Shown here: positions 9,381-52,017 of the stretch, in pieces | Numbering within the stretch: position 1 is the stretch's first letter | Layout of the letters: every line of letters begins with the position of its first letter | Assembly: GCA_024401695.1 (NCBI GenBank) | Contig: JAKSKN010000004.1 | Location: 1-64,000 of the forward strand | Length of the DNA stretch: 64,000 bases | Source of the DNA: Bacteroidales bacterium | Lineage (GTDB): Bacteria > Bacteroidota > Bacteroidia > Bacteroidales > UBA932 | Direction: 5' to 3' | Program-made: the position numbers and the translations under genes | Notes under the pieces: generated by a model | What the model saw: the letters and a program-made list of their open reading frames with translations, nothing else | What the model was told of the DNA's origin: nothing | Database searches by the model: none

Positions 9381-10457
9381 ATGAGTAGATACGATACAAG
9401 CAAGTACGATACGGCGGAGCAGATCCGCCGCAAGTCAGTGACCATGCCGTTCCTGGGAGTGATAGCCTTCGTGGTGTTGTTCCTCCTGGCGTTCGTATGG
9501 GGAAACATGGACAACCATTCCGTTGACGGTGGGTACGTGGCATACGTGTACTCCGAGCCGTTGATGGGCAAGAAGGAGTACAAGGGAATCATCAACGGCC
9601 CTGGCGGCACCGGATGGGTGTGGCGTCAGGAGAAGGTTGACATATCGGTGACTCCCTGGACTATGGCCGAGACGTTCACCGACATTCAGGCCAAGGACAA
9701 CCTGATCATGAAGGCACACGCCTCGCTGGTGTTCCGCGTGAACCGGGCGCTGGTCAAGGAGTTCGTGGAGGAGTACGGCGCGATGTCCGAGGTTGACCGC
9801 AAACCGGAGGCTATCATCAAGGATGCCTACGAGTCGTTCATACAGCAGCATTTCCGCAGTATTGTACGATCCGAGGTTTCCAAGTACAACGCACTTGAGG
9901 CGTCCTCCAGCATACCCAAGATCACAGACAATGTAACGGCGGCACTCAAGGCTCGTCTTGCCAACACTCCGTTCGTCGTGGAGTCTGTGACAATAGGCTA
10001 CACCATCCCTCCCGATAGTGTTATCGAGGGTATCACCAAGAAGGTGGCCACCACCCAGACGTACGAGCGCCAGGCCATTGAGCGCGACATCGCTCTCCGC
10101 TCCGAGGAGATCAAGGAGGCAGAGGGCCGTGCCGACGCCAAGAAGGCCGAGCAGACTGCAATGGGTGAGCGCAAGGCCGCCGAGCAGCGTGCAGACGCCG
10201 AGAAGTACAAGGCCATAGCAGCGGCCCAGGCCGAGGCTGAGGCTGTCAGGCTCAAGGCCGAGGCTGATGCGCTCGCAATCGAGAAGGTCGGAAAGGCCAA
10301 GGCCGAGGCGATCCGCCTTCAGGCCGAGGCTATCAACCGCAACTACATCGACCTGCAGATGACCGAGTCCGTCAAGGACATCAAGTGGCCTTCCACCTAT
10401 GTCGGCGGAGGTGTAGTTCAGGACCTGCTCAGGCAGGTTCTCGGAAACCGCAGCTGA
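9381..10457 (+). CDS. SPFH/band-7 membrane protein
   Basis: SPFH proteins (stomatin, prohibitin, HflK/C) form membrane-attached rings that organise membrane patches and proteases. Residues about 24-42 are one transmembrane helix (FLGVIAFVVLFLLAFVWG). Residues about 50-220 form the SPFH domain. Residues about 220-330 are an Ala/Glu/Lys-rich coiled coil (repeats of the AEAxRLKAEA type) as in HflK and prohibitins. At 358 residues the size is normal. It probably sits in the host inner membrane. The phage role is unknown; membrane remodelling or protection of phage proteins from FtsH-type proteolysis are options. Confidence 0.88.
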   Translation: MSRYDTSKYDTAEQIRRKSVTMPFLGVIAFVVLFLLAFVWGNMDNHSVDGGYVAYVYSEPLMGKKEYKGIINGPGGTGWVWRQEKVDISVTPWTMAETFTDIQAKDNLIMKAHASLVFRVNRALVKEFVEEYGAMSEVDRKPEAIIKDAYESFIQQHFRSIVRSEVSKYNALEASSSIPKITDNVTAALKARLANTPFVVESVTIGYTIPPDSVIEGITKKVATTQTYERQAIERDIALRSEEIKEAEGRADAKKAEQTAMGERKAAEQRADAEKYKAIAAAQAEAEAVRLKAEADALAIEKVGKAKAEAIRLQAEAINRNYIDLQMTESVKDIKWPSTYVGGGVVQDLLRQVLGNRS

Positions 10458-14364: not shown

Positions 14365-15744
14365 ATGGACGTAAGGTTATCGGGCCAGGTTGGAAACTGG
14401 CTGTTTCACACGGCTGCGGCCGTAAAGGAGTTTGGCAAGGATGCCTTGACTGGAGCCGTAAGCTGTGCCAAAAGGGAGCGGTTTGAAAGATCCAAGGCGG
14501 TGTTCTGCTCGCTGTGCGACTGGCTGCCTGTCAAGCGCGGCAAGAAGGAGGACTGCTCCGCAGAGGCCAACCGAAGGGCGGCAAGGTCAAACTGGCAGTC
14601 GCTCGGCTGCATACCTACCAGGGCGGAGTGCATGAACCTGTTCAGGGTGAAGAGGAGGACCGACATTACGTATCCAGTGATACATGTGCGCGGCACCGAC
14701 TACTTCACTTATTTCAAGGAAGGGGGCGTGGTTCTGGGCGCTTCGCACATAAAGGCGTGCGCCGCCGCCCTGGGGTTCAAGGTGGAGGAGTGTGCCATAG
14801 TCACAGACGACCCTGCATATGTAGGGTCGTTGGGGCTGAAGCCGAAGAGCGTTATAAGCGGCACCGCAGTTGACGACTTCGGCATAATGGCCAACGCAAG
14901 GCACCTTGTAATGTCTCCGTCCACGTTTTCGTGGTGGGCCGGGTTCATAGGCTATCACGACAAGGTCGTCATGCCTGTGGGAGTCGGTCCTTGGGACGCC
15001 GGCGTAATGAAAAAAGACCTCATCAGCGCGCAAAGCAACGCAGAGCTGTGCTGGGGAGACGAGTGTATAACCGCGCCTGGGGCCTGTCGGGAGGATGTGG
15101 CGTTGCTGACAATATGCACTGGACGGTACGTTGACCTGTTCAAGGGATTCTACGATTCGTTCAAGAAACATGTGAAGGGCAGCGTCAAGCTGTACGTGCT
15201 CACCGACGATCCGGACAGGGTGCGCGTGCAGAGCAACGGGGAGGCTGTGGCGGTGCGGATTGAGCACAGCAAGTGGCCTGGCGTTGTGATGCGGAAGTAC
15301 GACTACATACTTTCTGCAAAGGATCTTCTCGACAGGCATACAGCCATAGAGACGGTCCAGGTCAATGCCAGGTTTGTAAAGGACGTCGATTTCAGCACAT
15401 TGATCGGGGACAAGATTCTGTTTTGCCACCACCCGTACAACAAGCCTGGGTCGAAGTATGTGTGCGGAGGCGTCGTGGGAGGTCCGACCGGCAAGTTCAT
15501 GGAGATGGCAGTATGGATGTCAAGGTACCTGAACGATGCCGTTTCGTCTGGAAACATTCCGAAGTGGCACGACGAGACCGCGTTGAACCTGTACAAGGAT
15601 TCGCAGGCGACCGACTACGATGCGCTGCCAAGCGAGTTTACATACGCAGAGGAGAGGCCTTCCATGAAGACCGCCGCCTCTGTTGTCATGTTCAAGGACA
15701 AGGACAAGTTCTTCGGCTGTAGAAAGTCGGAGTATGCATCTTAA
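14365..15744 (+). CDS. GT11-GT6 glycosyltransferase fusion (fucosyltransferase + ABO-type)
   Basis: Residues 1-235 resemble GT11 alpha-1,2-fucosyltransferases: GQVGNWLFHTAAA at the start (family GGLGNQLFQ-A), HVRGTDYF near 107 (family H-R-GDY), VTDDPAYV near 151, and SPSTFSWWAGF near 186 (family S-SSFSWW). Residues about 245-459 resemble GT6 (ABO blood-group) transferases: LYVLTDDP near 277, SKWPGVVMRKYDYI, VNARF near 334 where animal enzymes have DVD and bacterial ones NXN, CGGVVGG, and WHDETALN near 401 (family WHDES-LN). GT11 would make Fuc-alpha1,2-Gal, the acceptor GT6 enzymes use to add alpha1,3-Gal or GalNAc. Substrates are inferred. Confidence 0.8.
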   Translation: MDVRLSGQVGNWLFHTAAAVKEFGKDALTGAVSCAKRERFERSKAVFCSLCDWLPVKRGKKEDCSAEANRRAARSNWQSLGCIPTRAECMNLFRVKRRTDITYPVIHVRGTDYFTYFKEGGVVLGASHIKACAAALGFKVEECAIVTDDPAYVGSLGLKPKSVISGTAVDDFGIMANARHLVMSPSTFSWWAGFIGYHDKVVMPVGVGPWDAGVMKKDLISAQSNAELCWGDECITAPGACREDVALLTICTGRYVDLFKGFYDSFKKHVKGSVKLYVLTDDPDRVRVQSNGEAVAVRIEHSKWPGVVMRKYDYILSAKDLLDRHTAIETVQVNARFVKDVDFSTLIGDKILFCHHPYNKPGSKYVCGGVVGGPTGKFMEMAVWMSRYLNDAVSSGNIPKWHDETALNLYKDSQATDYDALPSEFTYAEERPSMKTAASVVMFKDKDKFFGCRKSEYAS

Positions 15745-22296: not shown

Positions 22297-22656
22297 ATGA
22301 ATTACCTAACAAAACTTGTAACGATGGTTGCCGTGGCGTCTGTAGCACAGGCGTGCCCGGCATCCGTGCTCCCTGGGCCTGTAAACGTCCAGGGTATACC
22401 GGCGAAGTCCTCGGAGCCCTCCAAGGACGACGTCAGCATACGCGAGTACGAGGAGTGGATACACGCCCTCATGTACCGCAGGGAACGCGCAGTCAAGGAG
22501 TACAACGCCAACAGGTACGGCCTTCCCGGCAGGAACGCCTGCGAGGGTTCCGACCTGCTTGAGGAGATACTGGAGATTGACGAGCGCGTCAAGAAACTCA
22601 AGGACAAGGTTGAACGCCTCAAGAAGGAGGCAAACGGGAAAGGAGGCAAGGCATGA
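22297..22656 (+). CDS. secreted or lipid-anchored coiled-coil protein, 119 aa
   Basis: The first 19 residues form a signal peptide (LTKLVTMVAVASVAQA) ending in AQAC, a possible lipobox. A charged coiled coil (about 72-112) follows. It is probably a periplasmic or outer-membrane-anchored small protein. Its end overlaps the NAMPT-NadE start by 4 bases and provides a strong AAAGGAGG ribosome site for it. Confidence 0.7.
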   Translation: MNYLTKLVTMVAVASVAQACPASVLPGPVNVQGIPAKSSEPSKDDVSIREYEEWIHALMYRRERAVKEYNANRYGLPGRNACEGSDLLEEILEIDERVKKLKDKVERLKKEANGKGGKA

Positions 22657-25223
22657 CTGGTGTTGGAAACGTCAATCCGTTCCTGATAACGGACTTTTAC
22701 AAGCTGTGCCACATGATGCAGTATCCGGACGGCCTCACTTCGATGACCTCGTACATGGTGCCGAGGCTCTCCAGGCTGGCCGGTCATTTCGGCATAGACC
22801 ACGTCACGTTGTTCGGCATAACAGAGTATGTCAACAGCTTCGTGTTCAAGGAGTTCAACGAGAACTTCTTCGACAGGAAGTGGGAGGATGTGGAGAGGGA
22901 GATAGAGGCCGTGCTCCGCCAGGGGCTGTCCTATCCGTCTCAGCTCATAACGGACACGCTCAACAAGATAAAGAAGCTCCATGCCAAGAGGTATCTTCCG
23001 GTGTGCATACACGGCCTTCCGGAGGGCGCCGACGTGCCCATGGGCTGTCCGTGCATAGAGGTTACGACCACCGACCCCGAACTCCCGTGGGTTGGGCAGG
23101 TGCTCGAGGCCTCCATGTCCGCCGCCCTTTGGCATCCGATGGTGTCCGCCACAATAGCCAGGCACTACAGGGTGATAGCCGAGGTGTTCTACGACAAGAC
23201 CGTGGACAACGGGGATCCGAGGATGGCCATGTGCGACTTCTCCATGCGCGGCCAGGAGTCTGTGGAGTCTGCTGTTGCGTCCTCCGCAGGATGGTTGACA
23301 GCAATGTTCAACTCGTCCACGGTGGCCGCCAGGCACTACCTGTCTGCAAACTACTCCGACGGGGACAGTGCCCCTGTGTACGGTCTGACGTCCACCGAGC
23401 ACAGCGTCATGTGCGCGCATGCGGCTGTCGGACAGGAGGAGGATGCCTTCAAGCACCTGTTCTCCGTGTACAAGGACATATCGTTTGCGGCGGTGTGCGA
23501 CAGCTACAACTTCTGGAACGTGCTTGTCAACATCCTTCCAAAGTTCAAGGATGTCATCGACGAGCGCGGACGCAGGGGCAAGTTCATCGGCGTGAGGCAC
23601 GATTCGGCGGATCCCGTGGAGGCTGTGTGCGGAATACCGTACATAGACAACGCGGAGTTCGATAGCGTCAAGGCTTCACCGCCGACAACGTTCAATAAGT
23701 GCTACCTCGTCGAGGAGAAGAAGATTGCCGAGTGGAACCCGCTCACGGAGAACTGGAACACGAGGTACAGCGAGCCGACAGCGCAGGAGAAGGGTATCGT
23801 GCAGGTTCTGTACGAGAAGTTCGGAGGCTATGTGAACTCCAAGGGATACAAGGTCCTGAACCCGGGTGTGAAGGCCGTGTACGGCGACTCCATAACCGTG
23901 TCGAGGGCGATGCAGATATACAGGCAGTTGGAGGCCAAGGGTTTCGCGGCCAACAACGTCAGCCTGGGTGTCGGCTCGTTCTCGTTCCAGTGCATAGAGG
24001 ACATAGACGGCAACCTGTACCCGTTCACCAGGGACACGTTCTCCATAGCCATGAAGTGTACCGCCGCCAAGCGTGTCGGTGACGACGGAACCGAGACGTC
24101 GGTGAAGGTGTACAAGGATCCGTACGGGTTCTCCGAGAAGAAGTCCCTCAGGGGACTGTGCCGTGTGGACTGGGACGATAGTTCCGGAAAGGTGATCGGA
24201 TGGGAGGACCAGCTGGACGACAACGACGAGAAGGCTGAGCAGACAATGCCTGTGCTGTACTTCATAGACGGACGCCCGGAGGAACGGAAGTTTGCCGATG
24301 TGCGCGCCGTTGTGGACAAGTCTGTCGGAAGGCAGCTGGCCCTCAGGAGGTCCATAGGCAGGGGAGCCCAGTATTTCAACACGATCAGGACGCACATGAT
24401 GGAATGGGCGGCAAGCACCAAGGCCAACAACTTTGTCGTGGGATTGTCCGGCGGCAAGGACTCGACCGTGGTGGCCATGCTCATCTCCAAGATATTCGGC
24501 CCGTCCAGGCTGTACGGAGTGCTGCTCCCTGTCCAGAGGATGCCCAGGGCGGCGAGGAAGCCGAACGACGACACCGAGGTTGCATGGGACGTTGCCAGGT
24601 TGTGCGGCATAGCGTCGCCCAACTTCAACCAGTACAACAGGCACGTGTACGAGATACCCATAGAGTCCCCGCTCTCCAGCATCACGATGTGGACCGGCAG
24701 GGGCTTCACTCCGGCGTCCGTGGCGTGCAACGAGGCAATGAGGATCAACCTGCCCGCGCGTATAAGGATGGCTTGCCTGTTCGCCGTCGGGCAGCAGGTG
24801 GACGGGCGTGTGATAAACACGTCCAACCTGTCCGAGGACACTGTAGGGTACGCCACGCAGTTCGGTGACAACGCCGGCTGCTACGCTCCGCTGCAGGACA
24901 TGACGGTAACAGAGGTGAGGGAGCTGGGTATGTGGTTGGCCGTCTGCGCGTTCGGTCTCTCGGAGGCCGAGGCGAAGAGGCTCATATTCAGGACTCCGGC
25001 AGACGGTCTGCAGGAGAAATCCGACGAGGACCGCCTGGGCTTCACTTACAGCGAGCTGGACGACTTCATCAGGCACGACAAGGGGTCTGACGAGTTCAAG
25101 GCGCGCATAGTGGCGCTGTACAAGGCAAACAAGTTCAAGACGGACATCGTTCAGATGCCCAAGCCGCTGATGACGCTTCCGAACTATGTGAAGTCCGCCG
25201 CAGAGCTTGACGACGAGGACTGA
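22653..25223 (+). CDS. NAMPT-NadE fusion: nicotinamide phosphoribosyltransferase + NAD synthetase
   Basis: Residues 1 to about 480 are nicotinamide phosphoribosyltransferase (NadV/NAMPT, nicotinamide + PRPP to NMN): LITDFYKLCHMMQYP at the start, HGLPEGADVPMGCPCIEV, DFSMRGQES near 196, TSTEHS, VCDSYNF and RHDSADP near 316. Residues about 560-856 are NadE-type amidating NAD synthetase: P-loop SGGKDS near 599, NTSNLSEDTVGYATQFGD, and PADGLQEKSDEDRLG near 783. No glutaminase domain is present, so ammonia would be the nitrogen donor. The two reactions are not consecutive in standard NAD+ pathways, which makes the fusion odd. A strong AAAGGAGG lies 6 bases before the ATG. Confidence 0.87.
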   Translation: MTGVGNVNPFLITDFYKLCHMMQYPDGLTSMTSYMVPRLSRLAGHFGIDHVTLFGITEYVNSFVFKEFNENFFDRKWEDVEREIEAVLRQGLSYPSQLITDTLNKIKKLHAKRYLPVCIHGLPEGADVPMGCPCIEVTTTDPELPWVGQVLEASMSAALWHPMVSATIARHYRVIAEVFYDKTVDNGDPRMAMCDFSMRGQESVESAVASSAGWLTAMFNSSTVAARHYLSANYSDGDSAPVYGLTSTEHSVMCAHAAVGQEEDAFKHLFSVYKDISFAAVCDSYNFWNVLVNILPKFKDVIDERGRRGKFIGVRHDSADPVEAVCGIPYIDNAEFDSVKASPPTTFNKCYLVEEKKIAEWNPLTENWNTRYSEPTAQEKGIVQVLYEKFGGYVNSKGYKVLNPGVKAVYGDSITVSRAMQIYRQLEAKGFAANNVSLGVGSFSFQCIEDIDGNLYPFTRDTFSIAMKCTAAKRVGDDGTETSVKVYKDPYGFSEKKSLRGLCRVDWDDSSGKVIGWEDQLDDNDEKAEQTMPVLYFIDGRPEERKFADVRAVVDKSVGRQLALRRSIGRGAQYFNTIRTHMMEWAASTKANNFVVGLSGGKDSTVVAMLISKIFGPSRLYGVLLPVQRMPRAARKPNDDTEVAWDVARLCGIASPNFNQYNRHVYEIPIESPLSSITMWTGRGFTPASVACNEAMRINLPARIRMACLFAVGQQVDGRVINTSNLSEDTVGYATQFGDNAGCYAPLQDMTVTEVRELGMWLAVCAFGLSEAEAKRLIFRTPADGLQEKSDEDRLGFTYSELDDFIRHDKGSDEFKARIVALYKANKFKTDIVQMPKPLMTLPNYVKSAAELDDED

Positions 25224-32667: not shown

Positions 32668-33029
32668 GAAAGGCAGCATACATAGGATGTGACCCGGGAA
32701 GCGATCCCGGAAAGAACGCACTGGCCAGGCAGCAAGCCTTCGACGGCCAGTTGAAGGAAAGGCCGGTAGGCAGGGTCCGGGTTTCCATGCCCGGAACCCG
32801 CTACTCGCCTGAGGAGTTCGCCGACAGGATGGACAGTTTCTCGTCCTGGGCGGTGCGCCATCCCGGAAGCCCCGAACTGGCCAGGAGGCTGGCCGAGGTT
32901 TCCAGGCTGGCAGAGGAGAATCCGGAAATGTTCGCCGAATACTCGGCGGCGAGGGGAGGGCTCGGATCGGGCCCTCTCGCCCTGGTCGAGGCGTGCATAC
33001 CGGCAACAGCAGTTTCACCTACAATATGA
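32664..33029 (+). CDS. hypothetical protein, 121 aa
   Basis: Starts in an ATGA overlap. Contains repeated Pro/Gly-type turns (GCDPGSDPGKN, VSMPGTRYSP) and a helical middle (ELARRLAEVSRLAEENPEMF). It ends in an ATGA overlap with the ankyrin gene. Function is not recognised. Confidence 0.7.
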   Translation: MRKAAYIGCDPGSDPGKNALARQQAFDGQLKERPVGRVRVSMPGTRYSPEEFADRMDSFSSWAVRHPGSPELARRLAEVSRLAEENPEMFAEYSAARGGLGSGPLALVEACIPATAVSPTI

Positions 33030-35113
33030 ACGATTACAAATACGCATCGGGAAAGAGGTTTCCAGACAGCCTGGAAGAGGAGAAGGAGAGGGATGCCATG
33101 TGGCTTGAGGACCGTGGACTGGAAAGGTCCCGGCAGAGGGTGTACGAATTCAACGGCGAGCTGACGGAAACGTATTACGGTCCTGCGCCCGCCGCCCAAG
33201 CTGCACCCAAGGTGACTGGAAAGGGCTATCCCACGTTCGTGGTGTACCCGGACTACGTCGAGGTCGAGACGGTCCCTGTAGGAAAGGGACAGAAGAAGGA
33301 GGAGGACATAAGGAACGCGTGGATAGGGTTCATGGCGTTCTGTGGAAAGCAGGACCAGCAGGACCATGACTGCGGCAACAAGACAATGAACTACATGATG
33401 GACGGGCTGGCCGACCTCGGAAAGGCCGGGTTGACCACGGCCCTTGCCTACGCCGCCACCGGACAGATACTGTACGAGTCCGCCATCCCTCTCCTGCTGG
33501 ACATGGGAGCGGATCCCAACGGAGTGGTGTTCGTGGCCGGCTCCGGCTACACCACGCCGCTGCTGGAGGCCGTCAGGGGACTGTCGTCCACCTGCTGCTA
33601 CAGCATGGACAAGATGGAGTACGGCATCGACGGACGCATGTTCTTCAAGTCCACGGCATGCGGCCGTACGCTGGACATACTGCTTGAGGCAGGAGGCAAC
33701 CCGTTCAAGGCGGTCATACGCCCGAAACTGGTCAACCTGTACGGAAGGGGCTACACTGCAGCCTCGACGTATGTCAACACATGCTCGGCTGTATCCATAC
33801 TGGACATGCTGTGCAATATGGTGACCAAGGGTTCGGAGTGCACCGGCAGGGCTGGAAGGACGTGCGACGTGCAATCCTCCAGGGGATCGTACGCGCTGTC
33901 GGCGGTTGTGGACAGGATAGCCGGAAGGGACTCGAGGTTCATCGAGTTCCTGCATTGCGGGGCGTTCAGCGGAGGAGCGGCAGTGGACCGAATCCCCAGG
34001 TACTACCCAGGAGAGCTCGGTACAAGGATCTATGCAGCCGGCGACTCCATGCTCACCGCCTATGCGTCCATGTTGGGGCTTGTCCCGAGGACGGCCGACA
34101 TATACGGTCCCGGATGCTATACCGATGTTCCGACACCGAGCGAGGTAAGGAGGTTCGGGGAGGTGGACGCCGAGTTCTCCGGCAAGGCCACAGCCCTGTT
34201 CCACGCCGGACTGCCGTTCGAGTGGGACGGACGCTGGGGAATGGACATGTCCGGCTCCCAGGAGATGGGAGAGCTGTGTCCGTCCCTTGGACACCGTACC
34301 GGGAGCGATCCGGGAATGGAGGAGATCGGAGACCTGGGTTCGTCACTCAGGTGGATGTCCGGAAGGTCGTACACATCGTGCCAGTGGCTTGACCGCAACC
34401 TGCTCGACACCGCTGTGGCCTTAGGGGCCAACGTGGACGGCTGCAGGGTGCACACCACGGGTACGGGTACGGTCGACTCCGTGTGTCCTGACGACAAGGC
34501 GTTCATAAGCGAGGTGTTCAGGGAGTGCGACTGGGACTCCGTGGCAGCCAAGAGCGGTCCGCACGGCATAGCCGGAGGACGCACATCCGTAGCCACCGCG
34601 TTCGCACTGCTGGACATGGGAGCCGATCCCGACACAAGGTCCGGTACACACAGGGACACCGCCCTGATATCCCTGGCCAAGGCCTTTGCCAGCCGCTACT
34701 CCACATGCTCCACCAGGGATTCCATGCTGGATGCATTGAGGAGGCTGCTGGAGCACGGGGCCGACGTGAACGTGACCAACAGGGAAGGAGAGGACGCCCT
34801 GAGGGTGCTGGTAAGGGAAACGAACAGTTCCCTGTGGGGAGACATGTTCAACGAGAAGGGAAGGGCCAAGCAGCTGATGGAGTTCGCACAGGAGCTGATG
34901 GAGGCCGGCCTGGACCTCAACAGGACGTTTACCCTGGAGGCGGACGGTTCAGGCAAGAAGGCGGTCAAGCTGGTACCGCACGAACACGGCCTGGACCATG
35001 TGTTGTCGCATTTCATAGCGGCGGCCAGGAAAAGGTTGAACGGGATAGACGACGATATCCGCAAGGAACGCGAAAGGCTTGAGGCCGAAGCTTCCAAGGA
35101 TTCCAAGTCCTAG
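33026..35113 (+). CDS. ankyrin-repeat protein, 695 aa
   Basis: Ankyrin-type units are clear: AIPLLLDMGADPNGV (about residues 149-163), TLDILLEAGGNPFK (about 214-227), FALLDMGADPDTRS (about 525-538) followed by DTALISLAKAF, and LRRLLEHGADVNVTNREGED (about 572-591). Intervening segments look like diverged or long-loop repeats. There is no signal peptide. Ankyrin repeats bind proteins. In Wolbachia and sponge-symbiont phages they are linked to interaction with eukaryotic hosts, but they could equally bind bacterial proteins. The ATG at 33026 (ATGA overlap) is preferred to 32993. The gene ends 11 bases before a terminator hairpin. Confidence 0.82.
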   Translation: MNDYKYASGKRFPDSLEEEKERDAMWLEDRGLERSRQRVYEFNGELTETYYGPAPAAQAAPKVTGKGYPTFVVYPDYVEVETVPVGKGQKKEEDIRNAWIGFMAFCGKQDQQDHDCGNKTMNYMMDGLADLGKAGLTTALAYAATGQILYESAIPLLLDMGADPNGVVFVAGSGYTTPLLEAVRGLSSTCCYSMDKMEYGIDGRMFFKSTACGRTLDILLEAGGNPFKAVIRPKLVNLYGRGYTAASTYVNTCSAVSILDMLCNMVTKGSECTGRAGRTCDVQSSRGSYALSAVVDRIAGRDSRFIEFLHCGAFSGGAAVDRIPRYYPGELGTRIYAAGDSMLTAYASMLGLVPRTADIYGPGCYTDVPTPSEVRRFGEVDAEFSGKATALFHAGLPFEWDGRWGMDMSGSQEMGELCPSLGHRTGSDPGMEEIGDLGSSLRWMSGRSYTSCQWLDRNLLDTAVALGANVDGCRVHTTGTGTVDSVCPDDKAFISEVFRECDWDSVAAKSGPHGIAGGRTSVATAFALLDMGADPDTRSGTHRDTALISLAKAFASRYSTCSTRDSMLDALRRLLEHGADVNVTNREGEDALRVLVRETNSSLWGDMFNEKGRAKQLMEFAQELMEAGLDLNRTFTLEADGSGKKAVKLVPHEHGLDHVLSHFIAAARKRLNGIDDDIRKERERLEAEASKDSKS

Positions 35114-35217: not shown

Positions 35218-38200
35218 ATGCCTAATATTTTTAAGAATCCGGCTACGGCCGCCATCACAGGAGGCGTGGCGCTTCCGTTTGGAATGGACTGGTTGCAGCA
35301 CGAGGATGTGAAGGTGCCCGTGGTCGATTCGGTGCTGGATATGACACGCGGCAAGTTCGACAAGTTCAGGGCCGGCAACTTCGCCTTGAACTCCATGATC
35401 GGTGCCGCTTCCGGCGGACTTATGGCAAAACCCAAGACGCTTGTGCAGGGTGCCTCGCTGGCCGCCCTGGCACCTGCGAAGGACCTGCTCCTGAACATGC
35501 AGGGAACGCCGGAGAAGGTGAACAAGGTGCTGGACGAGATGCCCGAGGTCACCAAGGCAATGAAGGATGCCGGCAACAGGTCCAACATATTGATGGGTAT
35601 ACTCGGGGCGGGCGCCCTCGGTATCGGAGGTGCCGCCCTGTGGAAGTACCTGAAGAAGAGGGACGATATCCCCGGTGAGAACGGAACCATACAGTACATA
35701 ATGAAGGGCAAGGAGGGCGATCCCGAGACGGATGCTCTCGTCACCGTTCCCATCAACAACCCCGCCGTGTCCCAGAGCGTGGCGGAGGATATGAACATAA
35801 GCGTGAGGCGTGGACTGGGCAAGGCCGTGAAGTGGAACTCCAGCAGGAGGGATCCGAACACCGGCAAGCTCATACCTTATGCGGTATGGAACAACCTTTA
35901 CGGGCACAAGGACGAGTCAGAGCCTGCCAAGGCGCCCAACAGCGACTACGACGCCAAGTCGGGAGACAACGATCCAAAGGGAATGAACAAGGACGCAGCT
36001 AAAAAGAAGGACAAGAAGAAGGGCAAGTCCCGCAAGGGCGGCTTGCACAGCACCGCCGGAATGATAGGCGGAAGCACGATTGGAGCGCTCAAGAGTATGG
36101 CGCTCGGCGGGGGTCTTATACCCGGTGCACTGTCCGGTGCCAAAGCAGGCATGGAAGTGGACACGCTTAGGAACCTGAACGACTCGCTCAAGCCGAAGGA
36201 CAGGAAGAACGGCGGAATGATAACCGGCGGTATCCTCGGAGGACTCGGAGGAGGAGCACTCGGCGCACTGACTGCCCCGGAGAACAAGGCGGTCAGCGTA
36301 CCGATCGGCGCCATACTCGGTGCACTGGCCGGCGGAAGCACCGGTATAGACATAGACTCCTACAGGGCTTCGGGAGCCGTGGCCGACAAGATTTCCAAGA
36401 AGAGGAAGGGCAAGGAGCACTCCAACAGGTTCGGCACCACACTGGCCGGTGCATTGACCGGTGCAGGGCTGGGAGGACTGGTTGGAAGCCTCAAGAGGGA
36501 CGCGATGGGCAACGCCGGGTTAGGCCTTGGTGCCGGCACTGGAATAGGTGCCGGAATTGGTGCGCTATCCGGAGGCCTGCTCGGAAGCAAGATTGACGAG
36601 TATAGGAACATAACTGATGCAAACGAGATGCTCGGCAACGGAAGGAGCCACAAGGCTCCGGCCATAGGTGCCGGTGCCGGCGGTCTGCTCGGAGCCATAC
36701 TCGGCGGAATCGGTGCAGGCCCCGGAGGAGCCGTGGGCGGCGCGCTGGCCGGTGCGGGCGGTGGCGCCCTTCTCGGCACGGGTGTCGGATCCTACCTCAA
36801 GTCCAACGACATAGTCAACGAGGAGGAGGAACCGGAGAAGAACGCCGCAGCCGAGGGCTTCAACGCAATGGCCTACAACAGCGGAAGCGGTGCCCCCGAG
36901 GGAGTGCTCAAGGCCGTCAACAGGTTCACCCGCCCGGCAGGCACCGAAAGGAAGGACGACCATTCGTACACTGAGGGATCTCACAATACCAACTCTGCCG
37001 GCCTGGGACTGAACGATGCAGGCGGCAACGCCGGTATCAACAAGTCCGCCTCGGAGGTTGATCCGGGCGACATGCGCAACAGGTTCATCGGTATGGTCGG
37101 CAACACAATGTCCAACGCCGCCAATTCGGCGTACGGAGCCGCCTCCGATGCTGCAAGGTGGACTGGAAGGCAGGTCGGTAACGCCGCGCGCTCGGCGTAC
37201 GGAGCAGCTTCCAAGGCACTGGACTGGACAAGTTCACAGGTGGGCAACGCCGTGCGCGCCATGGAGGATGCCGACAAGGCCAGGGTGAACGGGCAGACGT
37301 TGAGTTCCTACAGGAGGGACAGGGCCAGCAGGCAGAGGGAAGACCTCCGCAACACGGCTGAGTCGGTCGTGAACAGGTTCAGGGCGTACGGAACGCCCCT
37401 GACCGATGCCGATAGGGCCGCCATAAGGACCAACGACAAGATGAACGAATTCGACAGGCTCTACAACGCAGGCAGGCAGGCCGGCACCATCAAGGCTGTC
37501 AACTACGGCAACAGGAAGGACGTGCTGAAGGACGTCAGCGACGCGTACGACAGGGAGATGGGACGCGGTCCGATAGATGCCGCCAATACAAGGGCGGAAC
37601 TGGGAGACACCGGAACCGTCAAGAAGGCGTCCAGGGAGTTCGCAGAGGGAGCCGGCACCGTAAGCTCTGGACTGGTAGGAGGCGCCCTTGGAGGCGCAGG
37701 CGGTGCAGCGGTTGCATCCGGCCTTGGCAAGGATCCCGTTATAGGCGGTACGGCCGGAGCATTGCTCGGAGCCCTCGTACCCAACATGGTAGGATACCTT
37801 GCAGGCAAGACGGCCGGCCCTCGACCCGACGGGGCACTTGAACAGCACGACAGCCACGCCGACATGGCAGAGTACGTCGTTCCCGGTTACGCATCTTACC
37901 AGTACGCAAGGAGGATGGAGACCGAGGACGCCGCGGCCAAGGCCAAGGAGGACACCATGAAGTCTTACCTTGCCACGGGTGCCATGCCTGGAGGACAGGA
38001 CGGCATACCGTCCAACCTGGAATCCGACGACGAGGAGGAGGACTACGGAAATTTTAAGTCGGCTGCTGTACAGGGAGCGTACCCTGGGCAGCAGCCTGCA
38101 TCCTCGACACATCCAGCCATCCGCAACCTCAACGGTGCGTTGAACAACAACAGGCAGAATGCCAATACGCAGAACACCCGGCAGCAGGGGCAGCAGGCCG

Positions 38201-39498
38201 GGCAGCAGATGCAGTCCCAGAGGGATTACAACGAGCAGACCAGGATAGCCACCGACATGCAGATGTACGGCTACGCCAGGGTCAGGGGAGCGGACGGAAA
38301 GCTCTACCATCCGCAACAGCAGCAGGGGCAGCAGGCGCAGCAGGGGCAGCAGCAGACTCAACAGCAGCCACAGCAGCAACAGCAGGCCGGCACCTCCGGT
38401 ATACAGGTTGCAAACACCACTCTGCCGGCAGCCGGCGGAGCCAATGCCACCAGCACGCAGAACCCTGCTCCAAGGACTGGTAACGGCAACGCGCCGCTGA
38501 CAATGAACTCCACTCCGGTCGTAGTGCAGGACAACGGGCAGAGGGAGCTTCAGTCTGTCGGCGAGGACGCTGCAAACTCCGAATACGACAGGAGGCTCAA
38601 CATGTACAGGCAGCACGGCTACAAGGGAGACGGCTCCGACATAACCGGCCTGGGTCCAAGGGACAAGTTCGTCGCCGACTACAACAAGAGGCGCAGCGAG
38701 GCAGCCCCTCCTCCCATGACACCCGAGCAGAAGGCGGCAGACGAGGCACAGAGGGCCAGTACGGCCGCTACAACCAGAAGCCAGCTAAGGTCTGATATAG
38801 CCAGGGAGCGCACGATCACCAACATGAACGGCACCAGCCAGACTATAGACAGCAAGACTACTCCGGAACAGTACCTTATGGACAATATGTTCAATAACGG
38901 GTCTTCCACATCGTCCACCACAGGTTTGGACGCCAACGGCGTGTACCATGCCAAGGCCAGGAGGATAAACTCTGCCGGCCTGGCGGAGACCGTGGACATG
39001 GACTCCGACACAGTGGACACGGCAAATCTCAGGAAGTCTCTGGGAGACATGAGGAACGGCATGCAGAAGAAGCTTGGGGTCGATCCAAACTCTATGAACT
39101 TCTGGAACCTCAACAGCAGGGACGACTACGACAACGCCGCAAAGTGGATGAAAGAGTACGGAGCCGGCCAGGACCAGATCGACGCGCTTAACAAGGACAG
39201 AACGGCAAGGTATGGAAGGGACAGCGTAAACTCGTGGTACCTGGACAATGACAGGAAGGTACAGGCAAACAGTTCTGTAGGCGTAAGGAACATGTTGTCC
39301 AGCTACGGAGACGCAGGCAAGCAGTCGTGGGCCAATCTGCGTAGTCCGAACGACTACTACCAGGCTCGCTCATGGCTACTGAGCAACGGCACCGCCACCG
39401 GGCGTACGAGGGGTGACATCAATACAGCGCTGAAGAGGCTGGAGGCCGACTACAACACAAGGTTCGGCAACCAGACCGAGTACAACCCGCAGCAGTAG
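35218..39498 (+). CDS. giant glycine-zipper virion-type protein, 1426 aa
   Basis: The first half holds many Gly/Ala-rich amphipathic stretches (GALGIGGAALWKYLKK, GGGALGALTAP, GAGTGIGAGIGALSGG, GAGGGALLGTGVGS), a pattern seen in membrane-penetrating or ejected virion proteins and lysis/toxin glycine zippers. A Gln-rich linker (about 1035-1060) follows, and the C-terminal part is soluble. Four K-x-A sites (K541, K609, K803, K947) divide the chain. It probably is a structural or ejected internal protein delivered with DNA; this is inferred from size, composition and neighbours. It starts a new transcription unit with no leader. Confidence 0.75.
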   Translation: MPNIFKNPATAAITGGVALPFGMDWLQHEDVKVPVVDSVLDMTRGKFDKFRAGNFALNSMIGAASGGLMAKPKTLVQGASLAALAPAKDLLLNMQGTPEKVNKVLDEMPEVTKAMKDAGNRSNILMGILGAGALGIGGAALWKYLKKRDDIPGENGTIQYIMKGKEGDPETDALVTVPINNPAVSQSVAEDMNISVRRGLGKAVKWNSSRRDPNTGKLIPYAVWNNLYGHKDESEPAKAPNSDYDAKSGDNDPKGMNKDAAKKKDKKKGKSRKGGLHSTAGMIGGSTIGALKSMALGGGLIPGALSGAKAGMEVDTLRNLNDSLKPKDRKNGGMITGGILGGLGGGALGALTAPENKAVSVPIGAILGALAGGSTGIDIDSYRASGAVADKISKKRKGKEHSNRFGTTLAGALTGAGLGGLVGSLKRDAMGNAGLGLGAGTGIGAGIGALSGGLLGSKIDEYRNITDANEMLGNGRSHKAPAIGAGAGGLLGAILGGIGAGPGGAVGGALAGAGGGALLGTGVGSYLKSNDIVNEEEEPEKNAAAEGFNAMAYNSGSGAPEGVLKAVNRFTRPAGTERKDDHSYTEGSHNTNSAGLGLNDAGGNAGINKSASEVDPGDMRNRFIGMVGNTMSNAANSAYGAASDAARWTGRQVGNAARSAYGAASKALDWTSSQVGNAVRAMEDADKARVNGQTLSSYRRDRASRQREDLRNTAESVVNRFRAYGTPLTDADRAAIRTNDKMNEFDRLYNAGRQAGTIKAVNYGNRKDVLKDVSDAYDREMGRGPIDAANTRAELGDTGTVKKASREFAEGAGTVSSGLVGGALGGAGGAAVASGLGKDPVIGGTAGALLGALVPNMVGYLAGKTAGPRPDGALEQHDSHADMAEYVVPGYASYQYARRMETEDAAAKAKEDTMKSYLATGAMPGGQDGIPSNLESDDEEEDYGNFKSAAVQGAYPGQQPASSTHPAIRNLNGALNNNRQNANTQNTRQQGQQAGQQMQSQRDYNEQTRIATDMQMYGYARVRGADGKLYHPQQQQGQQAQQGQQQTQQQPQQQQQAGTSGIQVANTTLPAAGGANATSTQNPAPRTGNGNAPLTMNSTPVVVQDNGQRELQSVGEDAANSEYDRRLNMYRQHGYKGDGSDITGLGPRDKFVADYNKRRSEAAPPPMTPEQKAADEAQRASTAATTRSQLRSDIARERTITNMNGTSQTIDSKTTPEQYLMDNMFNNGSSTSSTTGLDANGVYHAKARRINSAGLAETVDMDSDTVDTANLRKSLGDMRNGMQKKLGVDPNSMNFWNLNSRDDYDNAAKWMKEYGAGQDQIDALNKDRTARYGRDSVNSWYLDNDRKVQANSSVGVRNMLSSYGDAGKQSWANLRSPNDYYQARSWLLSNGTATGRTRGDINTALKRLEADYNTRFGNQTEYNPQQ

Positions 39499-40980: not shown

Positions 40981-41175
40981 ATGAAGGCATTGTCATTGGG
41001 AGAGTTTTTGGCGGCCTGCGGTGACGCCGGGGCCGATTGCATCAACTCCGGCGCGCAGTTCGACGACGCCCTGCGTGCAAGGGTGGATGAGAGGTACGCC
41101 AAGGAGGAGTATACCAAGCCTGACGTGGACAGGCTTATAAAAAACATGGGAATGTCAAATTTTCGCACTAAATGA
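40981..41175 (+). CDS. hypothetical protein, 64 aa
   Basis: Small helical acidic protein whose stop overlaps the start of the giant fibre gene (ATGA). Function is not recognised. Confidence 0.65.
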   Translation: MKALSLGEFLAACGDAGADCINSGAQFDDALRARVDERYAKEEYTKPDVDRLIKNMGMSNFRTK

Positions 41176-44100
41176 GCTATAATATACCTATAACGCTTTT
41201 CAGGGACCTGCCGGTGTATTCCGGAGCTCTGCCTCCGGATGGAGTGCAGCTTGTAGTGGTCGAGGGCAACAACGGACTGTACAGGGCCGGGCTTTCATCC
41301 ATACTGGAGGGTACGGCCACGGTGGCTGAGGGCGTGCCGGCGTATCCCGGCGACACCCTGTCCGGCGAGCTGGCCTGGGAGGACGGTGCGTTCTATGTGA
41401 ACACCGAGTCCGGTTGGGAAAAGATGGCTGTGTACTCGGAGCACTGGGACGACATAGTCCCCGGTACGAGGTTCTTGCGCGTCGACGCCCCTATGTCGCT
41501 CTCTGCGTCCGAGATAGGTAACGCATTGATTTCGCTTGACATAACGGAGGCTACACCGTCCCATATGGGACTGGTTTATATAGCAGAATCCATAGACGAC
41601 TTGAACAAGGTGGCCACGGCCGGGCTTGTCAAGTCTTATGTCGCCACGTTCAGGGACAGGATAGAGGAAGTGTACACTTATGTACAGGAAGCGGCAACAG
41701 AGATAGCCGGCGACCTGGCCATAGTCGACGCCGCCCTGGAGGAGATACGCGACATAGGCTCAAGCGTGGAGTCTGCCAAGTCGTATGTCGATGATGTGAA
41801 GGACGATGTCGACCTGTTGGCCTCTTCGGCCGCGTCGTCGGCCGGCAGGGCCGAGCTGGCCGCAGAGCGCGCCGAGCAGGCCTCCGGCGCACTACCCGGA
41901 TTCGACGAGATACCCACTGCTGACAGTAGGAATGTCGTCAGGTCCGGAGGCATAAAGCTGTGGGGAGACACTTCGTTCGTTCCTCTGTCGCATGTAGAGG
42001 ATATAGGTACGGGATATTCCGAGCCGCACGTGTCCGACGACGACAGGGAGCGGTGGGACGCGGCCGCCGGAGGCACCATTCCCGATAGGTACATGGAGGT
42101 GCTGGCAAGCCTGGCGGACGACGGTGCGATAACCGGGCCGGACATAAAAATAGGCGTCTCGGAGGATGATACCATCATTTGGGCCAGGGACATCGGCGTG
42201 GACGGTAAGACTGCGCTCACGCTCACGGCCGACAGCCTGTCCGTGGTGGCCGGCGACGGCGCAGACATAACAGGAGACACACATATTGAAGGCGACCTGG
42301 ACGTGTCCGGGACAGTCACGTCGGGAGGGCACGCCGTGGTGACGGTGAACGACGCCGGTGCGTTCCCGACAGGCGGCAGCCTGGTCGACGGATACGCCGG
42401 AGTGGCGGATGCAGTCGAATACATAGCGACTGTCGAGACGTCAATAAAGGACTATGTGGCCGCAAACTACTCCAGGGTGCCCGTGGAGGGAGGATATGCC
42501 GAGAGGGCCGGCGACAACACCATGACCGGAAGCAACGTGTTCACCGGAGAGGTGATGTTCACCGGTCCTGTGTCAGTCGATGGGCACGTTTTGTCGTGCG
42601 GAGGCGGACTGTCGGTGGACGGAGGCGACATAGACCTCGGCACCGGATGGTCCATCAACGCACCCGACGCCAATATAACCACTATATCGGCCGACCTGGT
42701 CGACATCGGTACCGGCGGAAGCCTGCGAGTGGACGGAGACACCAATGTGGTTGACATAGGCATAGGCGGAGACGCCCGCATACACGGTACCGCCGTTGTG
42801 GACGGCACGCTGACTGTTGGAGGAGACTTCTCCGTGGACGGAATCACCACTTTCGGCGACATTATAGACAGCGACGTCATAATAGGTCACGGACCGATAG
42901 GAAAGGTTAAGGCGCAGGCCGACCTGCACATAGGCGACCCGTCTGCTCCAGGCACAATAAGGTACAACAACTACACCTACACGGTGGACGCAGGCGTTCC
43001 GACGCAGGCCACCGGTCAGGTGGAGCTGGTTAATCCGATGGTGCCGTGCCTGATAACCATAGGAGACAACGATCCGCTGTACATAGAGCCCGAGAGGGCT
43101 TCGTTCAGCCTGCCGCGCGTCACATTGGCGGCCGCCCCGGTGACATACGCGTCGTTGGGAGCGGGAGCCGGAACGGCAGCCTCTGTCACCATAGGACCGT
43201 CTGCGCTCGATCCGTCCAGCGATGTGCAGGACTATAGCAAGGTCGGCGCATACTCTTCCATAAGCCTTTACTACAACGGCGAGAAGATATACGAGTTCCC
43301 GTCCACGTACGGGTGGACCGTAGGCTCGATGGTGTACGGCAACAAGTCATTGTGCAACATATGGGCTGCCCTGGATCCTGAACAGGCACAGGCCGGTGTT
43401 ACCAGTCCAGTACTGCAGTATATGCTAGGTGCGAGTGTGCCTGTACCGCCTCGCATACCTGAGGGAGCCACAGTTCCATACTTCAACGAGGTGCAGGTGT
43501 CGCTGTATGCCAAGCACGGCGGCGCATCCGGCAATGCCTTTTCCGTGGCTGCCCCAGGTGCTACCATAGGAACCCAAGGCTCAGGCACCAAAACAAAAAG
43601 CATACCTGAGACGAGCCTTGCCGGCGGCGGAGGTGTACAGGAGGCTGTATGCGCCATAGGTGTCCTTAGGGCAAAGGACAAGTCCACAGGAAACTACAGG
43701 CTTATTACCAATTCAGATGTAGCCTCCTTTGCAGACGGCGCGCGCCTGTATTTCAGGACAGGGTCATACATAAGGGCCTATATGGGCTCGGAGCTAGTAA
43801 TCGACCAGTCCATGGGAAGCACGGCAAAGACGTTCACGGAGCTGTGCACGTATATACCTGAACTGCTGGCATCTATAATGCCTATAGAGATGTATCAGGT
43901 GCACCAGTGTTGGGGCAGCGCGAAGGTAACAACTATGCACTGCAAGGCCGCCAATGCCGGAGCAGCAGGCAACGACTTGAGGATAGAGATATACACTGGA
44001 GACACTTCTTCCGTAGGAAACTACGCCGAGTATTTCAAGATAGACATGTTCGGCGGTGTCGACGGTGTCGACCCAGGCACCGACACGGATCCAGGCACGG

Positions 44101-47100
44101 ACACCACTCCAGGACACTTCTCAGGCTGCACCATAGGGCCGTCCACAAACGAGGGATTCTACGACAACGGTGTAGGCATAGCGTGGCTCGGAGACGGAAT
44201 TCCGTGGGAATCGGAAATCTCCGATGAAGACAAGGTGGTGTACCTGCTGCCGCATATAGGGGCAGGCACATCGCCTATGATAGACGACTTCAGGGCGCTG
44301 ACGTCGGAATTCAGCCCTGTTTTCGCAGAAAGGCTTACCTCGTCGCTAGTGTCAGGGACTACAGCGGACCCTGAAACGCTGGTGTACGAGGTGGAGGCCA
44401 CGCATGGCGGCGATGTGGATAACGGCTTTGCTGCGGTGGCCCTGGATGCAACCGACAGTTCGCACAGCCTGATCCAACAACTGTCAGGAGGATCTGAGAC
44501 AGAGCAGGCTGCCACAAGGGCCATAGGTGCGCTTTTTAATGATGCCCACGGCTATTACGCTACAACTCCAGTAGTAGTATCTGACCCAGATGCCATCTTT
44601 CGTCCTGGAGATTTGTTGACGATATTCCTTTACGACAATACGCCCGGTGGAGAGAGAACAATAAAGTACGTAGAAGTGACAGTCGACATCACCATGCGTG
44701 ACTTTGTCGACATAGTCAACTCAGAGTTTGGCGACTATGTGACTGCATACCTTGTACTTGCCTACGATCCAGACTCAGGTTCAAATGGGTATACGGTGCA
44801 TTGCAGGGCGGTAGAACCTGGAGCGCGCACCAACAACTATTCTATAGATATAGGATACAGACCTGGTTTCTCCATGACGTTTGCGCGTATGCCGTTGTTC
44901 GGTGGCGCCGACGCCTACGACCCCGGAACCGGCTCCAAGTCCACTTCCACGTCGTCTTCGGACGTGCCCGTGGTGCATCCCCTTACGCCACAGCAGATAG
45001 CCGACCTCATAAGCACACTGCCGGACTACACCGCTTCGGTTCACGAAACCGGAAGCAACCTTGTCGACATCACAGCCAAGCTGCCTGGAGCAAGGTTCAA
45101 CGCGGACACATACGCTGCAGGCGGTGTCGACGTGGTAACGCCGGTGTCTGGCGGCTCAGACAACAGGGATGCCGGAGGATTGGCGGCTCTGCTGAGCGAT
45201 GTGGACATCTTCGACGTCAGGGCGGAAGTGGTGTATCCTGATGTTATCGAGCTTACAGCCAAGCAGGCAGGCGGCTACAACAACGACAAGCCTATAGAGT
45301 GCACAGGCTGCTTCGGAACGGGAACTGTACTGATGGGCTCCAAGACAGCCGGTGCAGACGGTGTGGATCCCACTCACTACAACCTGGTGCTGAACGGCGA
45401 ACATATCACGCCCGGAGGAGGCGGTGGCGGATCCGTGACGCTGGATCCAATCCCCGTGTCCGGTTCTACCGACACGGCCGTGTCAAGCGCAGGCGTGTAC
45501 GACGCTACATTCGTCCGCACTTCGGGAGGCGACCCCGTATGGGCCGGCCCTGGCCTTCTGGCCCACGAAAGCGACAACAATATACACACTACGCAGCCCG
45601 CCAAGAAAAACTGGAACGATGCGGTCAATGCACACCTTGTGCTGAAGTTCACGCCGTTCGGGTCAGAGAACAGGGAGGCGCACTACTTCGTACTGGCGGC
45701 GTCCAATACATACAGGGGATTCCTTAAGGCAATATCCATAAGGGGAGCGTCGGCCGGCACTGTGCACGCGCCGTTCTACATCGGCGTGTTCGAGAAGCCG
45801 GAAGGCGGAAGTTCCGACCCGTCGACCTGGAACCTCATGGGCGTAAGCAATGAGCCCGGCCAGGAGGAGATAGGTAGGTCTCACTCATGGGACTTCGACA
45901 GCGTGGAGCTGGCAGGCGGCCGTGACATAGCAATTTGCGCCATGACTAGTCCTGGGCAGGGTTGGAACACGTCCACTCCGTTCAACGTCAGGGTTGGAAG
46001 CAGGCCGTCCGGTGACACGTCCAGCAACGTGGACGGAGTAGCCGGCCTGGTGCAGTGTACGCTGTCCACCATGGTAATGTCCGGAGAGATGATTGTATCC
46101 CACGCGGCAGACGCATCTGTCCACCTCGACGCTTTCGAGCGCAACCTGATGAACAACCTTGACGCCGGCTGGCTGTGGTATCCAAACCAAACCGGAAGCG
46201 TTACTGTCGCCGGCGACTCCAGCGGCAATCCAAACGGTGTGTCCATACAGTCCACCAACGCATACGGAAGGATCGAGATACAGGATTACGGGGTTGTGAT
46301 AACAGCCACCAGGAATCCGCAATGGCTGGATGCCTCGACCACGTCGTATGCGTTCTACGACATACTGACCACCAAGGACTTCAATCCGTCTTCCGTGCCT
46401 GCCTTGTCCAGCAGGGTGACGGCGGTCGAGGGAGGCGTAGCAGCCCTTGAAGCCAACTCGCACAATATGCGTACAATAACGTATGCAGACAAGCACGGCG
46501 AGGTGCAGGTAGTGGCGTACTTCGGCGACAGCGCTGCCGATTTCCTTGGAGTGTGCTTCCCCAACGGCTTCACGATAGCCGGCAAGACCTGGTACATGAT
46601 GTCGAAGAACGAGTTCGACTCGCTGGCCGCTGCATCAGGAGACAAGAGGACAATCACTTCTGCGGACGGCGACGTGGTGTTCTACGAGCCGACCGCCACG
46701 GGAGGCAACGCCATATTCAGGGTTGACTCGAGGTACAACGGCGTGCAGGGCGGTGTGACACCCAGCTGGACTGTATCTGTCAACTACGGATCCATAACAG
46801 TGTCGCAGCCGGCGGCGTACGCGTTGCCGCCGGCGCAGGAGGCCGCCAGGGTAAGGATGGTCGATGTAGCGGCCAATGCGTCGGACAGGAGGGCCGACAG
46901 GCTTGAGAGGGTTGTATCAAACCTTGGCAACGGCCTGCTCACCCTCACAGAGGACGACATATACTTCGCCTCACCGGACATCAACAACAACGGCGCGTAC
47001 AGCCTGGCAGACGGCACGCTGTCCATGTCAGGAGGCGGAGGATACAGCATGGTGATGCTGCACAAGGCGGCAAGGCACTTCGAGGCGACCACGACGGCCG

Positions 47101-51429: not shown

Positions 51430-52017
51430 ATGACTAAGACATACGCTAAACTGACAGAGTTCGGAACCCTCCAAATGATGGGGCGCCTACCGAACATATC
51501 AAACCCTACGGAAGAGCAGAGAGCTGCATACGCTGCAGCCAACGGCTACAAGGAGCTGGTGCACACGCCGGCACCGGGCCGCTACTACAACGTCGGCTAC
51601 ACGGAAGACGACACCACCATCACGGAGGTGTGGAACCCGTGGGAGCTCGACGCCGCCAAGAGGGACGCCCTCAACCTGGTGCAGGCGGAGCGCGACCGCG
51701 GTATGAACAACGTCGTGATACCGTGCGAGGCCCTGCCTAACGGCATCCTCTTCAACACCGAGTCCATGGTGTACGCCCTGGGCCTGTCGGCATCTCCGTC
51801 GCTTGAGGGAGAGACCTGGACGGACGCCGCCGACGAGACGCACGACCTCACCACTCCAATGCTCGCCTCCATAGCCGTGGCCATGAAGACGCACATCAGC
51901 GAGGTCCAGGCGGCTGCAAGGCCGAAGAGGGACGCCATCCGCACGGCAGAGACGGTTGACGAGGTGGAGGCTGCCCTGCATGGTAGGATCCCGAACGCTG
52001 ACGGTCTTGCCGAATGA
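51430..52017 (+). CDS. tail-fibre assembly-like protein (DUF4376-like), 195 aa
   Basis: The layout is that of fibre-assembly accessory proteins: a short N-terminal domain (LVHTPAPGRYYNVGYTEDDT), then a helical DUF4376-like domain (AKRDALNLVQAERDRG and a conserved N-G-x-x-F-N-T-E-S segment). It lies directly after a fibre/adhesin cassette, fitting a chaperone or assembly role. Confidence 0.7.
   Translation: MTKTYAKLTEFGTLQMMGRLPNISNPTEEQRAAYAAANGYKELVHTPAPGRYYNVGYTEDDTTITEVWNPWELDAAKRDALNLVQAERDRGMNNVVIPCEALPNGILFNTESMVYALGLSASPSLEGETWTDAADETHDLTTPMLASIAVAMKTHISEVQAAARPKRDAIRTAETVDEVEAALHGRIPNADGLAE

Follow-up and report, generated by a model that had tools for sequence, protein, structure and literature searches.

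Diverged GT11-like and GT6-like glycosyltransferase halves joined in one intact reading frame of a jumbo phage

Can a single phage gene carry out two successive glycosyl transfers, and if so, on which glycan? The question is raised by an open reading frame (ORF) in a 64-kb stretch of DNA (hereafter the window), in which a first-pass annotation recognized a phage-encoded fusion and a possible synthase of blood group antigens. The window is the first 64,000 bases of contig C33, which is 203,138 bases long and belongs to a 2.65-Mb, 97%-complete MAG. The contig ends carry a 55-base direct terminal repeat, and it is therefore read as what is probably a circular genome. C33 encodes TerL, RNA polymerase beta-like subunits, a primase, helicases and a rIIA-like protein; with these hallmark genes and a genome above 200 kb it can be classified from its sequence as a jumbo phage, which agrees with the phage origin proposed for the gene. 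In the phage collection, the RNA polymerase subunits closest to those of C33 belong to Salmonella phage Arash and Vibrio phages D69, D181 and D148, at 32-34% identity. There are nine tRNA genes in the window, and the leaders of its ORFs are A-rich, with Shine-Dalgarno-like 4-mers before only 10 of 61. Such leaders with few Shine-Dalgarno sites are a Bacteroidota-like trait. The MAG is considered a candidate host only. RNA polymerase was discarded as a link to the host, since the query matched 313 of the 398 genomes of the MAG's family, and these matches were read as cellular RNA polymerase.

Several other genes of the window deserve mention in their own right. A second two-enzyme fusion is encoded by an 856-aa ORF (22653-25223), in which a match to nicotinamide phosphoribosyltransferase (aa 6-558) is followed by one to NAD synthetase (aa 574-830). 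A 765-aa protein (49111-51408) contains leucine-rich repeats of BspA type in seven stretches (LRR_5, E 2.6e-48); it is a possible host-binding protein and adjoins a tail-protein match (51430-52017, E 4.5e-6). A 706-aa protein (32993-35113) has weak ankyrin-repeat matches, and a 358-aa protein (9381-10457), prohibitin-like by eye, matches PHROG 200 ('lipoprotein', E 2.5e-37). The products of 41172-47534 (2120 aa) and 35218-39498 (1426 aa) had no PHROG match and no Pfam match over the cut-off.

The ORF in question (Table 1) starts 12 bases after the end of the previous one and contains every motif quoted in the first-pass annotation. In the cyanophages Bellamy, S-PRM1, SynMITS9220M01 and DSL-LC03 a GT11 gene is followed head-to-tail by a separate GT6 gene (families assigned by HMM) and the two overlap by 1 to 4 bases, which would favor an artefact, namely that two adjacent genes were merged through an assembly or sequencing error. 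However, all nine successive 150-base blocks tested in the ORF prefer the same frame, with no frame change at the junction. The mean log codon scores of the two halves (-3.90 and -3.88) are those of the other ORFs of the window (-3.90), the GC3 value is 0.72 vs. 0.68 (sd 0.09) for 61 plus-strand ORFs picked by length, and the GT11 and GT6 alignments are connected by a short linker. Since codon usage and frame match across both halves, the fusion is not a pair of genes merged by an obvious frameshift, and an error of this kind is barely credible.

Table 1. Positions of the fusion gene and its parts in the 64-kb window.
Feature	Position	Strand	Basis or remark
GT11-GT6 fusion protein, 459 aa	14365..15744	+	single ATG ORF; one frame preferred throughout
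GT11-like half, GT-B type, aa 1-236	14365..15072	+	HMM, PF01531, PHROG 2644; C-terminal nucleotide-binding domain clearest, aa 102-205
GQVGNWLF, N-terminal GT11 motif (GxLGNQMF in many relatives)	14383..14406	+	Asn11 in 82/82 rows
HVRGTDYF, motif I (HxRR in most relatives)	14683..14706	+	R109 kept, second Arg replaced by Gly
STFSWWAGF, C-terminal GT11 motif	14920..14946	+	within PF01531 match, aa 166-201
Short linker, aa 237-243	15073..15093	+	between GT11 alignment end and GT6 start; boundaries approximate
GT6-like half, GT-A fold, aa 244-459	15094..15741	+	HMM, PHROG 3317, predicted model, BoGT6a match
QVN, aa 332-334, at the DxD/NxN position	15358..15366	+	ungapped alignment
Missing-loop site (BoGT6a loop 1)	15433..15462	+	12 residues from HP to GG vs. 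31-45 in 117 relatives
WHDE, aa 401-404, including GT6 catalytic Glu404 (BoGT6a E192)	15565..15576	+	alignment
Lys446, equivalent of BoGT6a Lys231 (UDP leaving group)	15700..15702	+	alignment

The descent of the two halves was followed with HMMs built from alignments from which the window row had been removed. After filters on E value, length, strand and start, and removal of rows more than 75% alike, 81 of 112 GT11 rows and 37 of 97 viral GT6 rows were retained; the latter, in which two human faecal records are counted as viral, make up 117 GT6 relatives together with 80 bacterial rows. The whole protein, searched among 1001 sequences, matched the GT11 HMM with an E value of 1.2e-21 (main stretch aa 102-205) and the GT6 HMM with 3.9e-35 (aa 244-447, profile positions 120-143 skipped), while 0 of the 1000 shuffles in the search reached E 10 with either. 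Both profiles being significant within one intact ORF, the claim that a single protein joins a fucosyltransferase-like and an ABO-type half passed the profile check that had been suggested for it. The protein thus descends from GT11 in its N-terminal half and from GT6 in its C-terminal half.

The GT11 assignment can be said to rest mainly on the nucleotide-binding domain. With a narrower HMM built on 6 rows the E value was just 6.2e-5, Pfam Glyco_transf_11 (PF01531) scored 24.5 bits against a cut-off of 23.9 and covered aa 166-201 only, and PHROG 2644 matched with 1.3e-6. Asn11 of GxxGN, Arg109 of motif I and Ser186 of the SFSWW motif are invariant in all 82 GT11 rows, the window included. At the second position of motif I these rows have Arg in 65 cases and Gly in 11, and GxxGN and motif I are 100 aa apart, slightly less than in the other rows (102-169). 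The two halves were modelled apart; a joint whole-protein alignment (37 GT6 and 50 GT11 rows) had been discarded, all 50 GT11 rows having stacked on the GT6 half. The GT11 model has a pLDDT of 77 overall, with block means of 77-97 over the well-modelled aa 81-200. Foldseek found no PDB match at E 0.001. All matches were weak: POFUT2 was the best (E 2e-3, TM 0.32) and took the first three places, followed by FUT8, POFUT1, other GT-B enzymes and some unrelated folds. The structure check proposed in the first-pass annotation gave a mixed outcome for this half: the C-terminal nucleotide-binding domain is well modelled, whereas aa 32-65 have pLDDT below 50 and the PDB matches are weak, so that a complete GT-B fold with its acceptor domain is putative.

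For the GT6 half, a narrower HMM of 9 rows gave 1.3e-27 and PHROG 3317 matched with 6.9e-18. The NCBIfam family-6 model (NF041524) scored 80.6 bits, under its cut-off of 250, and a Pfam search of the fusion protein listed none of the GT6 families up to E 10. The predicted model (pLDDT 88.9) matches BoGT6a, the metal-independent CAZy GT6 enzyme of Bacteroides ovatus (PDB 4ayj, 4cj8), with a TM of 0.80, an rmsd of 2.6 and an E value of 5e-16 for 4ayj (23% identity in the best Foldseek row), and it also matches human GTA/GTB. Neither a single unrelated fold nor a loss of the nucleotide-sugar pockets was obtained here; the model is BoGT6a-like. Residues Tyr255, Trp304, Asn334, His356, Gly369, Trp401-His-Asp-Glu404 and Lys446 are kept, corresponding to Tyr13, Trp66, Asn97, His122, Gly157, Trp189, His190, Asp191, Glu192 and Lys231 of BoGT6a, for which residue roles are given in PMC3961637. 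Changes of a conservative kind are Asn95 to Gln332 and Arg73 to Lys311. Ala96, Asn69 and Thr70 are all replaced by Val, and the last of these positions is Thr in 105 of the 117 relatives. According to the same paper, Asn95 of BoGT6a contacts the substrate and Asn97 does not (PMC3961637); as Asn95 has become Gln and the kept Asn334 equals Asn97, the substrate-contacting Asn is the one replaced.

The DxD position was given in the first-pass annotation as NAR, which was thought to bring the enzyme close to metal-independent bacterial GT6. In the ungapped alignment the position is occupied by Q332-V333-N334, and NAR, which starts two residues downstream, was rejected as a metal site by the alignment columns. 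The closeness to bacterial enzymes is nevertheless favored by QVN and by the tree, though not by way of NAR. QVN has amide residues at both ends, as has the NAN of BoGT6a, the first being Gln where a strict Asn-X-Asn would have Asn. Among the 37 viral rows the position reads DAD, DVD or DID in 34, DVC in one and NAN in two, both of them the human faecal records; among the 80 bacterial rows it reads NAN or NSN in 71, DAD or DVD in seven, NAD in one and NGT in one. In the GT6 tree the window half falls on the bacterial NXN side of a 97/88 branch, where 65 bacterial rows and both faecal records also lie, and away from the phage DXD enzymes. Its terminal branch is very long (3.32 vs. a median of 0.24), so its place is unsure. 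With that reservation, we infer that the GT6 half descends from bacterial metal-independent GT6 and not from the cyanophage DxD type. The two faecal 'bacteriophage' records (MT838506.1 and MT836157.1, L012 and L014) are likely bacterial contigs, because their GT6 genes group with those of Gemmiger and Subdoligranulum.

Both halves are, judged by their sequences, strongly diverged. The stretch corresponding to loop 1 of BoGT6a is shorter by at least 19 residues than in every one of the 117 relatives, and Thr134 of BoGT6a falls in the part that is missing. In BoGT6a loop 1 comprises residues 126-150 and becomes ordered upon substrate binding (PMC3961637). The protein may accordingly have been repurposed, with one of the two domains inactive, or with both using other donors or acceptors, and with the H-to-A/B sequence of steps lost. 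The loss of most of loop 1, the replacement of Thr70 and Asn69 by Val and the branch of 3.32 speak for such a course, as do the lost second Arg of motif I and the weak N-terminal region of the GT11 half. On the other side stand the kept Glu404, Lys446, Trp401, His402 and Asp403 and the kept Arg109 of the GT11 half, the intact ORF with ordinary codon usage, and the Gly at the second motif I position, which is shared by 10 of the 81 other GT11 rows. Repurposing is a tenable, if somewhat improbable, explanation, and the donor supply discussed below also bears on it.

No close relative of the fusion emerged from the collections searched. Among 50,697 phage records 67 match the protein, none over 80% of it in one place, and exact peptide seeds found no close relatives of it in the viral and genome contig collections. 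Seeds of two other C33 phage proteins likewise found no relatives in the viral contig collection. Of 101 relatives, 398 family and 395 class genomes of the MAG (sets that overlap in part), 5, 3 and 19 matched, its own included; among the matches listed, all but the window cover one half or little more.

The pairing of the two families is nevertheless found elsewhere. The four cyanophages named above share both families, their order and their immediate adjacency with the window gene. They differ in having separate genes, a DxD-type GT6 with a full loop, and neighboring genes for an NAD-dependent epimerase or for GDP-fucose; in DSL-LC03 annotated GDP-mannose dehydratase and GDP-fucose synthase genes lie beside the pair. 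The window gene, by comparison, stands alone. Two genes lie between GT11 and GT6 in P-SSM2, and one in ACG-2014f. In the best 80 of at least 370 confirmed viral GT6 loci, a GT11 ORF was present in the locus in 38 and lay within 1.5 kb upstream in 26 (10 overlapping) and downstream in 6, and none was fused. Conversely, GT6 was present in 8 of 57 viral GT11 loci among the matches listed, again with no fusion.

Fusions do occur in bacteria. Among the best 80 of 176 bacterial GT6 loci, 4 encode a fusion and another 30 contain a GT11 ORF. The order is GT6-GT11 in L200 (Kuenenia MAG), L223 (Planctomycetota MAG) and L248 (Hoeflea MAG), and GT11-GT6, as in the window, in L214 (Gastranaerophilales MAG). 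The first three share a starred clade of the tree, while L214 belongs to another, the other rows of which are unfused in their loci; at least two fusion events in bacteria are therefore likely, and the phage fusion, with its unsure place in the tree, may be a further independent one. Like the window gene, these four have both domains in one ORF. However, three of them have the reverse order, all four retain NAN, WHDE and a full loop and lie on contigs of bacterial assemblies, and their GT6 halves are less diverged; the tree does not settle their kinship to the GT6 half of the window. The architecture is thus not unique. No description of a GT11-GT6 fusion was found in the open-licence literature, which leaves most subscription journals outside. 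The recurrence of the fusion supports the reading of consecutive steps, and so the earlier observation that GT11 followed by GT6 matches two such steps is supported, given the same order in the four cyanophages and bacterial fusions in both orders.

The supply of donors is less favorable. Searches of the phage contig gave no GT11 match besides the fusion itself and no match to GT2 or of GDP-mannose-dehydratase type; the fusion gene is thus isolated, in contrast to the cassettes of the cyanophages. Across the assembly as a whole (97% complete, with the phage contig), no gmd was found over the cut-off and FKP had no match, in a search where 1 of 14 controls exceeded the cut-off. The GDP_Man_Dehyd matches in the MAG were rejected as gmd, being galE on C23, rmlD at a second locus of C4, a gene on C4 that by eye resembles dTDP-glucose dehydratase, and an unassigned sugar dehydratase on C1; none of them was over the gmd cut-off. 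The galE gene scores 381.5 bits, over its cut-off, and a supply of UDP-Gal in the MAG is possible. Within the genus of the MAG gmd is over the cut-off in 9 of 37 genomes (its own included, some incomplete), compared with 25 of 61 in the whole search, and GDP-fucose is thus a patchy trait there. If the host is without GDP-fucose, the GT11 half has to be silent or draw on a different donor. The absence of gmd over the cut-off and of FKP from MAG and phage counts in favor of repurposing.

How then could the protein act? We give about an even chance to a two-domain, two-step glycosyltransferase of a jumbo phage that acts on a surface glycan of the host. The N-terminal GT-B domain, of GT11 descent, would attach a deoxyhexose to a terminal residue resembling galactose, the likeliest sugar and donor being L-fucose and GDP-fucose; the C-terminal GT-A domain, of GT6 descent and probably metal-independent, would then add an alpha-linked hexose or HexNAc to the same residue with configuration retained. 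The acceptor would most likely be a cytoplasmic precursor of the host surface glycan, and the altered glycan of the infected cell could, for example, stop further adsorption. Phages often alter host glycans to block superinfection. Modification of the virion is a weaker alternative. Counted for the two-step reading are both profiles, the BoGT6a-like model, the kept residues, the link between GT11 and GT6 elsewhere, and galE; counted against it are loop 1, the changes at Thr70, Asn69 and Asn95, the long branch, the weak GT11 model, the absence of gmd and FKP, and the isolated gene. The descent and order of the domains, the intact frame and the kept catalytic residues of the GT6 half are established by the analysis, whereas we infer the activity, location, donors, acceptor and biological role of the protein. 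Since donor, acceptor and the activity of each half belong to the latter group, and loop 1 has been lost for the most part, confidence in the two-step reading is moderate.

A true histo-blood-group A or B synthase would be a special case, in which Fuc-alpha1,2-Gal is made and then extended with alpha1,3-linked GalNAc or Gal, so that a mammalian-like epitope appears on host cells or virions. The two families and their order are those of such a synthase, and the nearest solved structure is the A-type synthase of B. ovatus, whose action on 2'-fucosyllactose yields A-like products without a metal requirement (PMC3961637). Positions 266 and 268 of human ABO, with roles described in PMC4202792, correspond in our reading of the alignment to Cys367 and Gly369, which do not decide between A and B. 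The equivalent of Thr134 is missing with loop 1, and donor supply is unproven, with no gmd over the cut-off, no FKP, and gmd in so few genomes of the genus, some of them incomplete. The A/B epitope foreseen in the first-pass annotation is thus undermined by the loop that is mostly missing, the GT6 branch of 3.32 and the missing gmd and FKP, and it is highly unlikely; display on virions and glycan mimicry would be speculative.

Compared with known systems, the two-step glycosyltransferase that we favor has partial counterparts. With BoGT6a it shares the GT-A fold, WHDE, the C-terminal Lys and the amide residues at the DxD position, and it differs in its low identity, its short loop 1, the replacement of Asn95 by Gln and of Asn69 and Thr70 by Val, and the fused GT11 domain. 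WbwK (GT11) and WbnI (GT6) of Escherichia coli O86 belong likewise to one pathway, that of the blood-group-B-like O antigen, though as two bacterial enzymes; the acceptor of WbnI is Fuc-alpha2-Gal (PMC4202792). PgtA of Dictyostelium and Toxoplasma, a cytoplasmic bifunctional beta1,3-galactosyltransferase/alpha1,2-fucosyltransferase (PMC8439653), similarly performs two glycosyl transfers in one protein, one of them an alpha1,2-fucosylation, but it is eukaryotic and its partner reaction is another one. GT11 and GT6 in one pathway, and a bifunctional protein in which one step is a fucosyl transfer, are thus already known.

The boldest form of the proposal is that one phage protein performs a fucosylation and then a metal-free addition of alpha-Gal/GalNAc type, passing the substrate between the fused domains, and during infection thereby puts a branched trisaccharide of blood-group-like type on the surface glycan of a Bacteroidota-like host; the fusion would have arisen several times in bacteria and phages and have been selected for this coupling. 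Taken as a whole, it is speculative and rather unlikely. If active, the fusion would be a one-gene tool for branched Fuc/Gal structures and evidence of phages coupling two glycosylation steps through gene fusion, as well as a natural test of GT6 function without the substrate-ordered loop 1. The repeated pairing and fusion of GT11 and GT6 in phages and distant bacteria is a testable sign of a selected two-step unit outside vertebrates.
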